From: [Borrelia] tanukii
GTDB lineage: Bacteria > Spirochaetota > Spirochaetia > Borreliales > Borreliaceae
Reading direction: 5' to 3'
Assembly (NCBI RefSeq): GCF_030436345.1
Contig: NZ_CP124038.1
Location: forward strand, 434,001 to 498,000
DNA length: 64,000 nucleotides
The position numbers were made by a program, and so were the translations under genes. The notes beneath the pieces are model-generated. The model searched no databases and was not told where the DNA came from. It saw only the letters and a program-made list of their open reading frames with translations. Positions 48-12,343 of the stretch are shown here, one piece after another; position 1 is the stretch's first letter, and every line of letters starts with the position of its first letter.

Positions 48-2981
<2,934 letters not shown>

Positions 2982-3150: not shown

Positions 3151-3262
3151 CCCTGGCAATAACTTACTCTCCCGCGAACTCGCAGTACCATCAGCGAATA
3201 AGAGCTTAACTTCTGTGTTCGGAATGATAACAGGTGTTTCCTCTTTTCTTTAACCACCAGGG
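3151..3262 (-). rRNA. rrf: 5S rRNA (proximal unit)
   Basis: 112-base 5S rRNA on the minus strand. The ends CCCTGG and CCAGGG pair to form helix I, and the conserved CCGAACACAGAAGTTAAGC block is present. It starts 21 bases beyond the 3' end of the proximal 23S copy. The 3' end runs into a T-rich stretch, so helix I plus the T-run could serve as the unit's terminator. Confidence 0.96.
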
Positions 3263-3283: not shown

Positions 3284-6217
<2,934 letters not shown>

Positions 6218-8653: not shown

Positions 8654-8727
8654 GGGATCATAGCTCAGGTGGTTAGAGCGCAGGTCTGATAAACCTGAGG
8701 TCGGATGTTCAACTCATCCTGGTCCCA
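8654..8727 (+). tRNA. tRNA-Ile (anticodon GAU)
   Basis: 74-base tRNA with a full cloverleaf: acceptor GGGATCA pairs with TGGTCCC (one U-G pair), D stem GCTC/GAGC, anticodon loop CTGATAA with GAT, and T stem GGATG/CATCC. CCA is not encoded. In most bacteria tRNA-Ile lies inside the rRNA spacer on the rRNA strand; here it faces the 16S gene on the opposite strand. Confidence 0.97.
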
Positions 8728-8971
8728 ATGTATTATAATGCGCTCTCATTTTTAAAATACATATTTGATAATATAAAAACCTTTCACCTCAAAAATTTGA
8801 AGTTACTATTAACAAATCTTAATTTAATATAAAGCTGTATAACACCAAACATTCGCTAAAGATCTATTTTTTCCTAAAGTTTAAACTAAAAACTTACTTT
8901 GGCTTCAAAACTTTTTCATCAAAATAAAAATACAAAAAAGTCAATAAAATTAATCTTAATTCATCTTTCCC
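8728..8971. other. Spacer including eroded 16S 3' flank
   Basis: No gene seen. From about 8880 rightward the sequence resembles the 3' flank of the intact 16S gene (from about 10565), for example TGGCTTCAAAACT against TGGTTTCAAAAACT. The ancient 16S duplication therefore included flanking sequence. Confidence 0.55.
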
Positions 8972-10290
8972 TTAGAGAGCGCGTGGTCTAGTCACACCTT
9001 CTAGTAAAAAATCGCCTTGCTAAGACCTCACCTGCCCCACTAAACACGTCTTGGGTGTCTTTTTCTTACGGACTACTAGAATAATAGCCCCCGTACATCT
9101 CTTCAACTCGGATATGGGACTAGCAGTGGCGTATAAAAGGCCTATAACATACTCACAGTATCATTTTGATACATAATTACTAACGACTTCAATTCGCACT
9201 AAAACTTATTTTATGGCATTCTGCTTCACAGCGCTGTTTCGCTTCGCGAAAACACCCTTGTAGCCCAGGATATAAAAGCCACAATGATTTGACACTCTCC
9301 CCCAACTTCCTCTAACTTATCAACAGCAATCTTATCTGATTTTTCACCTTTATCATATGTTGATAACAAATAATAAAGGTCGTGACCGTTACAAGACTTA
9401 ATCCATAAAAGTTCACGATAACCATTTAGCACCTTCATACAGAATCAAACGAGAAATAATTTTCTCCGGCTATATCCTATATACGTCAAAACTCTGGCAA
9501 GATTCCTCGTGTACAATCGAATTAATCCACATACACCCAGCACACAGACGACACACTTAACACGGTAACTTCGAAATTAACCTTTAATTAGCACCAAGTG
9601 TGCATCGTTTGCAACACAGACACCGAAATATCTCATACCGTTTTGTCACCACACTTTCATGATTCATCGGTACTAGTCTTGACCGGAAGCTTCCACCTTC
9701 ACATCTGATATTCTTCCTGATATCAATGAATTACACCTTACGCTATAAATGCTAACTTACTCTATCGGGCTCTAGATATATAATATCCAACATAGCGCCA
9801 AAGTTGAGCTGTGATATTTTACATAAACTTATATATTTGTCTATTCATGCCCTACATTCCACTGATCAGAACTTATCCCTACTTATTACTAAGGCCGCTA
9901 ACATATAATTAGCCGAAGATTATTCCTAATTTATAAAAGAATTTTACAATCTTCTGCCCTTCTTTACTCACGCAGTGTCGATCCGTTAAAATTTTACCCA
10001 TTGCAGAAAATTTTTAGATGCTGCTTCTAGTAGAAATCTGAACCGTATCTCAGCTCCAGTACAACCGTTCGCCTTTTTAAACCGGCTACTTATCATCATC
10101 TTGGAAGATATTTGTTTCACCAACTAACTAATAGAACGCAAGCTTCTTTTATCAATTAACAAATCTAATTGTACTTATTCATATTAGCTACTAGAAACAG
10201 TAGCTACTTCCATATGATGGATACTAACAGGTTAGCATCTAAATAAATTGATACATTTCGTTTGACTTGAGTGCTTTAAACCCTTCGTTA
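8972..10290 (-). pseudogene. Decayed second 16S rRNA gene
   Basis: This stretch follows the intact 16S gene (10664-12200) from end to end in order, with very many substitutions and several deletions; by eye identity is roughly 70-75%. The anti-Shine-Dalgarno CCTCC is destroyed at the 3' end and the 530-loop GCCGCGGTAATAC is scrambled. About 50 bases around the 900 region and about 40 bases just 5' of the 530 loop are missing. The copy cannot be a working 16S. Similarity continues past the 5' end into the leader (10290-10400). The reading frame at 9226-9438 is inside it and is not coding. Compare the intact segments at 10937-11020 and 9226-9290 for the clearest match. Confidence 0.9.
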
Positions 10291-10420
10291 ATTATATTTT
10301 ATCTAAAAACCTAACAAGCTTTGCTTAGCTTTTAGCCTTACTTAAAGTTTTTCCCATCTCATCTTTCAATAATTATTTTAACTTTAATAACCTGCTTAAT
10401 CTCAAGAATATGACCAATAG
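10291..10420 (-). pseudogene. Relic of a 16S leader/promoter region
   Basis: Upstream of the decayed 16S, 10300-10380 aligns with the leader of the intact 16S (12220-12300): both contain AACAAG, a CTTACTTAA block and CATCTTtCAATAAT. Near 10407-10419 a TGACCAAT resembles the TGTCAAT that carries the intact gene's -35 box, so the promoter itself may have been copied and lost. Confidence 0.5.
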
Positions 10421-10421
10421 A

Positions 10422-10495
10422 TGGAGGTTAAGGGACTCGAACCCTTGACCCTCGGCTTGCAAAGCCGATGCTCTAGCCAACTGAGCTAAACCCCC
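10422..10495 (-). tRNA. tRNA-Ala (anticodon UGC)
   Basis: 74-base tRNA on the minus strand in the 16S transcript direction. Acceptor GGGGGTT pairs with AACCTCC, the anticodon loop contains TGC, and the T loop TTCGAGT is canonical. CCA is not encoded. It lies 168 bases beyond the 16S 3' end, between the intact and the decayed 16S copies. Confidence 0.97.
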
Positions 10496-10597
10496 AATCA
10501 ATCTAAACCTAAACTTAATAAAGTTTTTTAACATTGTCAATAAAAACCACATAAAAAAACTTCTCTTAAGTTTATAGATATAAACCTGGTTTCAAAA

Positions 10598-10663: not shown

Positions 10664-12200
<1,537 letters not shown>

Positions 12201-12265
12201 TTCTTATTTTTTATTTAAAAAATTAACAAGTTTTGTTTATTCTTTTGCTTGGCTTTCAACCTTAC

Positions 12266-12313: not shown

Positions 12314-12343
12314 ACTTTAACAAAAGTAGAATCATATTGTCAA
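12314..12343 (-). promoter_or_regulatory. Promoter of 16S-tRNA-Ala transcript
   Basis: On the minus strand TTGACA (12343-12338) is followed after 18 bases by TAAAGT (12319-12314). The -35 box is perfect and the -10 box matches 4 of 6. Transcription would start about 105 bases upstream of mature 16S, so the leader holds the processing-stem arm. Similar TTGACA boxes precede both 23S units and tRNA-Ile. Confidence 0.55.

Follow-up and report, generated by a model that had tools for sequence, protein, structure and literature searches.

The spacer between tRNA-Ala and tRNA-Ile in the rRNA region of B. tanukii holds a decayed, near-full-length second copy of the 16S rRNA gene, and 16S-like sequence is distributed genus-wide in the same spacer of Borreliella. 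The copy of B. tanukii is a non-functional pseudogene, whose motifs are damaged and whose substitutions disregard both base pairs and conserved sites. We consider it very likely that it represents an ancestral 16S duplicate of the Borreliella stem, now dead and neutrally decaying, which was lost in parallel and with gene conversion.

Organization of the rRNA region

The window (the whole stretch of 64,000 nucleotides analysed, positions 434,001 to 498,000 of contig NZ_CP124038.1) contains, in this order, rrs, tRNA-Ala and the 16S pseudogene on the minus strand, tRNA-Ile on the plus strand, and then 23S, 5S and 23S genes on the minus strand. The intact 16S gene, rrs, is located at 10666..12201 (-) (RF00177, 1542 bits), with a promoter-like site TTGACA-18-TAAAGT at 12314..12343 (-) that was identified by consensus scan only. 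tRNA-Ala (TGC, 10420..10496, -) separates the two 16S copies, and tRNA-Ile (GAT, 8654..8727, +), on the opposite strand, bounds the spacer at its other side. Beyond it lie the first 23S copy (3285..6213, -), the 5S gene (3151..3261, -) and the second 23S copy (49..2977, -), and both 23S copies are full model matches (2796.6 and 2795.7 bits). The 16S pseudogene is situated in the tRNA-Ala/tRNA-Ile interval, ahead of the 23S-5S repeats and on the strand of rrs, and it and rrs are the only two 16S matches at E<=0.001 in the whole B. tanukii genome. On another contig of this genome, 3000 bases around guaA are 99.3% identical to a B. tanukii plasmid and 93.4% to the best record of the next species, in agreement with the species name. 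The consensus scan listed no promoter-like site at the head of the pseudogene, which is weak evidence; it listed 8 sites in the region, fewer than the mean of 12.0 in shuffles. A separate TTGACA hexamer occurs in the long rrs trailer (10535-10540, -) and starts 44 bases ahead of tRNA-Ala; it was not listed by the scan and is missing from all six trailers of the other genus that were compared. It is possibly a candidate promoter for tRNA-Ala itself.

Homology, extent and damage of the 16S copy

The core of the pseudogene (rrsB-type, 8976..10319, -) matched RF00177 from model position 1 to 1533 (cmscan, 221.5 bits, E 7e-67), and the tRNA-Ala/tRNA-Ile spacer, aligned locally to the rrs unit, scored 545.5, with 25 as the best of 100 dinucleotide shuffles. 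The earlier note, made from the letters of the window, had proposed a decayed but complete 16S copy in the orientation of rrs, and had named a shuffle-level alignment or a covariance hit confined to a short segment as evidence to the contrary; neither was seen. Identity to rrs depends on the method and lies between 67 and 74%: blastn gave 67% over 1089 bases and MAFFT 73.9% over 1297 aligned rrs positions. The copy has 16 deletions with 240 bases in total, and those of at least 20 bases measure 34, 27, 44, 51 and 28, the 34-base one being the first 34 bases of the 16S gene. Deletions of about 50 and 40 bases had been noted before, and these two are real (51 and 44), while the three others of at least 20 bases had been overlooked. 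Damage to the 530 loop and the anti-Shine-Dalgarno, likewise claimed in the note, is borne out by 12 of 19 matches left in the former and 8 of 14 left at the 3' end in the latter, and the decoding-centre motifs retain 6 of 13 matches in the 1400 region and 10 of 12 in the 1490 region.

Similarity does continue into both flanks, as the note had it. A decayed copy of the rrs leader occupies 10320..10389 (-) (score 52.0, maximum of 200 shuffles 28.5), and a decayed copy of the rrs trailer occupies 8814..8975 (-) (44.5, maximum of 200 shuffles 28.0), its end falling by alignment near the start of tRNA-Ala in the intact unit. The extent of 8880-10420 given earlier is replaced by better limits for the whole duplicated unit, about 8814-10389, of which the upper one moves by about 20 bases with the scoring.

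Decay without detectable constraint

Constraint was assessed on the Rfam structure of intact 16S (458 pairs) by redealing the substitutions among aligned sites of the same base 1000 times. The window copy kept 270 of 338 base pairs versus 263.0 (sd 5.9) simulated, carried 15 compensatory changes versus 16.3, and had 167 substitutions at conserved sites versus 164.4. Its GC-to-AT change was 0.355 per GC site and the reverse 0.130 per AT site. With neither pairs nor conserved sites spared and with change directed towards AT, we read the window copy as neutrally decaying, and no function of the B. tanukii copy was detectable by the structure, conserved-site and motif tests.

The other pseudogenes compared likewise lack structural constraint. 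Between 40 (garinii) and 978 (valaisiana) of the 1000 simulations reached or exceeded the number of kept pairs in nine of ten pseudogenes; the exception is californiensis (100 pairs kept versus 86.9 simulated, 2 of 1000 simulations as high), and its excess is ascribed to the conversion tract described below. Compensatory changes were somewhat high in valaisiana (16 versus 10.5, 49/1000) and garinii (12 versus 7.6, 60/1000), and conserved 16S sites were not significantly spared in any of the ten, the lowest being afzelii with 128 versus 139.1 (75/1000). Deletions are large and mostly different from lineage to lineage.

Distribution in Borreliella and the other genus

The family sample comprised 36 genomes, 18 of Borreliella and 18 of the other genus, which we take to be relapsing-fever and related Borrelia; a 16S match was found in 35, and the one Borreliella genome lacking it (G028) was excluded throughout. 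Nine of the 18 Borreliella genomes had a second 16S match at E<=0.001 (in 7 of them over the cut-off), against 0 of 18 of the other genus. By local alignment, 16S-like sequence lay between tRNA-Ala and tRNA-Ile in all 16 testable Borreliella species, every one of which outscored its 100 mononucleotide shuffles, the testable set being that without G028, B. chilensis (record without spacer and tRNA-Ala) and B. japonica (masked there). Scores ranged from 1126.5 in lusitaniae down to 78.5 in americana (shuffle maximum 24.0 in both), and even the B. burgdorferi spacer (G022), only 638 bases long, scored 96.0 against a shuffle maximum of 22.5, though this species is credited with a single 16S; a plasmid piece of G022 is 100% identical to that of strain B31. 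As a control, the 1500 bases beyond tRNA-Ile were at shuffle level in 17 of 17 genomes, and in the other genus 0 of 18 tRNA-Ala/tRNA-Ile spacers exceeded the maximum of 60 shuffles. One trace in that genus (G014), a single point above the maximum of 15 shuffles, was rejected, as it was gone with 60 shuffles. Identity of the pseudogenes within rrs runs from 90.0% (lusitaniae) to 65.1% (bissettiae).

Three further observations were made in these genomes. In B. chilensis (G025:C1:435500-445800), tRNA-Ile is located 246 bases past rrs, with neither tRNA-Ala nor the pseudogene spacer present; no close match to the tRNA-Ala gene was found elsewhere in this genome, which has 32 tRNA matches versus 33 in B. 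andersonii and B. maritima. A true loss is less likely than an assembly error, given that a tRNA-Ala is expected to be essential. In five genomes of the other genus (G013-G017) the spacer is about 3.2 kb long with a GC of 0.33-0.37, versus 274-535 bases in 12 of the 18, and these long spacers have no detectable 16S similarity. On a plasmid contig of B. andersonii (G021:C2:14954-15215), a GMP synthase domain match is split in two and has internal stops, while it is in one piece and without stops in the other 17 Borreliella genomes, so that guaA of this genome looks broken.

Unit and date of the duplication

Leader homology above shuffles was found in only 7 of 16 species and trailer homology in only 8 of 16. 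The onset of the leader copy is 9 to 32 bases past tRNA-Ala in six species and 48 bases past it in B. maritima; in B. lusitaniae and B. afzelii the copy covers the position of the rrs -35 hexamer. Seven of the eight trailer copies stop no more than 12 bases from the tRNA-Ala start of the intact unit, and that of garinii no more than 24 bases from it. No credible relic of a second tRNA-Ala was present after the pseudogene in any of the 11 species tried, which counts against a plain tandem duplication of the whole unit. Two candidate relics were rejected, as both alignments look like the 3' end of the 16S copy: the one in afzelii scored 13.5, more than any of 300 shuffles, and the one in californiensis 11.5, which exceeded the 95% point.

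The rrs trailer measures 154-177 bases in 16 Borreliella, and 56-86 in 17 of 18 genomes of the other genus with 202 in the remaining one. Seven sites are fixed for different bases in the two genera; among the 70 cells of the pseudogenes at these sites, 52 have the Borreliella base, 4 that of the other genus, 4 a different base and 10 a gap. The long Borreliella trailer, the fixed-site count and the lack of any trace in the 18 genomes of the other genus together place the duplication on the Borreliella stem.

The pseudogene alignment contained 10 of the 16 species; those with short relics (burgdorferi, americana, lanei, finlandensis, andersonii and maritima) were left out of it, and chilensis, having no tRNA-Ala, was left out of the rrs alignment and of all analyses using that alignment. 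In a tree of leader, trailer and outer 16S, all ten pseudogenes formed one clade (UFBoot 100). With 16S columns alone and with rrs of the other genus added, the clade breaks, and spielmanii and garinii attach singly among rrs with supports of 31 and 33. Sharing its place and, with the flanks, one clade with them, the window copy appears orthologous to the B. afzelii/B. garinii copy, with the caveat that garinii stands outside the pseudogene clade (support 33) in the tree of 16S columns only with the other genus.

Probable gene conversion from rrs

Several pseudogenes have tracts of low divergence from rrs. In lusitaniae, mismatches were 0.051 in rrs 378-1352 and 0.185 outside, with a log-likelihood gain of 32.7 versus 8.6 in 60 permutations, and such tracts were also found in spielmanii (34.5 versus 9.5), californiensis (29.0 versus 8.2) and, weaker, afzelii (13.8 versus 8.0); the 60 permutations were run on a coarser grid (16) than the data (8), so that all permutation maxima are somewhat low. 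The garinii tract was marginal (8.1 versus 6.6), with its match to its own rrs ranking 13 of 16, and tanukii, turdi, valaisiana and yangtzensis had no significant low-divergence tract. A tract in bissettiae (gain 23.5, permutation maximum 6.3) was set aside for poor alignment.

Among 48 variable rrs sites, the own-species rrs was best or tied for lusitaniae, afzelii, spielmanii and californiensis and not for the other six. Over the ten pseudogenes, own-species matches came to 238 of 339, a modest result that was reached in 44 of 5000 label permutations; afzelii alone was weak, its best 300-base window being reached by 57 of 2000 permutations and its longest run by 385. Two of the three rrs alleles private to lusitaniae (837 and 1255, not 219) are found in the lusitaniae pseudogene and in no other, and the base at site 1278 unique to the rrs of afzelii and spielmanii is, among the pseudogenes, found in theirs only. 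In the middle-region tree (9 pseudogenes, without yangtzensis), the lusitaniae pseudogene pairs with its own rrs (UFBoot 97). Retained function as the source of the lusitaniae tract was rejected, since substitutions hit 77 of 665 conserved sites, about as many as simulated (75.1), and the species alleles fit conversion. An overwriting of part of the B. lusitaniae pseudogene by rrs through gene conversion is well supported by these sequence patterns, and similar overwriting, less clear than in lusitaniae, probably took place in afzelii, spielmanii and californiensis.

Timing of the decay and alternative explanations

Sharing of mutations was examined in six lineages, one pseudogene each, against 300 simulations. 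Death of the copy before the split should have left many mutations common to its descendants. Mutations common to at least four of the six lineages numbered 20 (simulated mean 13.3, maximum 27) and those common to at least three 92 (mean 71.2, maximum 87), and in the outer parts alone 68 were common to at least three (mean 52.5, maximum 68). In the part outside rrs 430-1060, into which the lusitaniae and californiensis tracts still extend, 14 were common to at least four lineages (10.6 simulated, maximum 20). Californiensis and bissettiae have 127 mutations in common versus 38.7 simulated (maximum 50), and 30 occur in all three of tanukii, valaisiana and yangtzensis versus 9.6 (maximum 18); afzelii and spielmanii (63 versus 50.5, maximum 66) and tanukii and turdi (64 versus 55.1, maximum 70) show no clear sharing. 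As sharing between deep lineages is near chance while close relatives share many, most of the decay would fall after the main lineages split, and the slight excess at three or more lineages indicates that some of it may be older. Probably, then, the Lyme-group lineages split at a time when the copy was near-intact or was being kept alike through gene conversion.

A single inactivation before the split of the Lyme species, with the shared mutations erased by later gene conversion, is conceivable and we hold it to be rather doubtful. It would draw on the tracts, which do exist, and on the excess common to at least three lineages, which lies above all 300 simulations; however, sharing by four or more lineages stays near chance outside rrs 430-1060, and turdi and tanukii, which have no significant tract, share a number of mutations within the simulated range. 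Parallel loss is the better of these two readings and not a proven one, and it modifies the earlier note, in which the spacer was a fossil of an ancestor with two 16S genes: that ancestor is supported, and a fossil inherited already dead is less so, since mutations shared near chance point to separate decay in several lineages. Independent duplications of rrs in single species would agree with the wide range of identity to rrs and with the failure of pseudogene monophyly without flanks, and yet are improbable, given that 16S similarity sits in the same interval in all 16 species, that the trailer copy ends at nearly the same point in seven of eight, and that the clade has a support of 100 with flanks. 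Still less probable is a constrained non-coding RNA or processing element derived from the old 16S: a recognisable form persists in all 16 species, but the structure test is neutral, the deletions are large and mostly lineage-specific, the burgdorferi spacer is reduced to 638 bases, and, in the available part of PMC3037291, no tRNA-Ala/tRNA-Ile transcript is recorded in strain N40, though the spacer of N40 is mostly deleted. A foreign 16S acquired by transfer, or an assembly artefact, can practically be dismissed, as we found no point in favour of either, while the pseudogenes have Borreliella bases at most sites fixed between the genera, the homology takes in the Borreliella leader and trailer, and the copy is present in many separate assemblies.

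Proposed history

Returning to the ancestral duplicate lost in parallel, we propose that a unit beginning at about the rrs promoter and taking in leader, 16S and trailer would have been duplicated beside the original on the Borreliella stem; this mechanism is our inference, while the outcome, a second 16S between tRNA-Ala and tRNA-Ile, is seen in position and homology. The second copy may then have stayed close to rrs for a time through function, gene conversion or both. After the split of the main Lyme lineages, several of them would each have lost it through deletions and substitutions towards AT, as the sharing statistics support, and the tracts and species alleles indicate that rrs would have rewritten part of the copy in B. 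lusitaniae and, with weaker signs, in afzelii, spielmanii and californiensis. Whether the Lyme-group ancestor had two working 16S genes kept alike by conversion, and several of the six lineages then each lost the second one while rrs still rewrote it in some species, we regard as an even question.

Significance

Lyme spirochetes are commonly typed by the rrs-to-rrl spacer. In some species this spacer contains a 16S pseudogene that apparently exchanges sequence with rrs, which matters for spacer typing and for how 16S genes are assembled and annotated. The pseudogenes form a graded series of decay in which structural constraint was not detected; it may serve as a neutral yardstick for mutation and deletion in Borreliella, and the same series is a natural case of rRNA copy-number reduction. 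If the ancestor did have two working 16S genes, a parallel reduction of rRNA gene number would be visible here at graded stages of decay.

Prior reports and comparison with known systems

The earlier note was unsure whether such a copy had been reported; a 16S pseudogene, rrsB, at the same place in B. afzelii and B. garinii had in fact been published with the genome of B. afzelii K78 (PMC4370689). The part of that paper examined counts a single 16S gene in B. burgdorferi and two, named rrsA and rrsB, in B. afzelii and B. garinii, and rrsB is 77-79% identical to rrsA, has a GC of about 38% and is an apparent pseudogene, for which a 1994 paper is cited; B. tanukii, gene conversion and further species are unmentioned in that part. 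In the available parts of other sources, B. garinii is given one 16S copy, contrary to PMC4370689 (PMC3037291), and the Lyme group is credited with one 16S gene (review, PMC8533607). For B. burgdorferi N40, and by statement B31, the same part of PMC3037291 describes by RT-PCR a single transcript of rrs and tRNA-Ala and no transcript joining tRNA-Ala and tRNA-Ile. In the literature searched, neither gene conversion nor the copy in further Lyme species was found described, which is weak evidence of novelty, as subscription journals were mostly outside the search. The kind of object is known and not widely noted, and the B. tanukii copy is a further member; what the present comparison adds is the genus-wide reading as ancestral duplicate, parallel loss and conversion.

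Like the window copy, rrsB of B. afzelii and B. garinii is a degenerate second 16S between tRNA-Ala and tRNA-Ile with a GC lower than that of rrs. The B. tanukii copy is more decayed (67-74% identity by method, against the 77-79% reported for rrsB in the part of PMC4370689 examined), and its deletions differ from those of rrsB in afzelii and garinii. From a functional second 16S gene it differs in having neither an intact decoding centre nor an intact anti-Shine-Dalgarno. The tandem 23S-5S duplication of the Lyme group (rrlA-rrfA, rrlB-rrfB) lies at the same locus and is likewise a duplication of rRNA genes; however, both of its 23S copies match the model in full in the window, whereas the 16S duplicate is dead.
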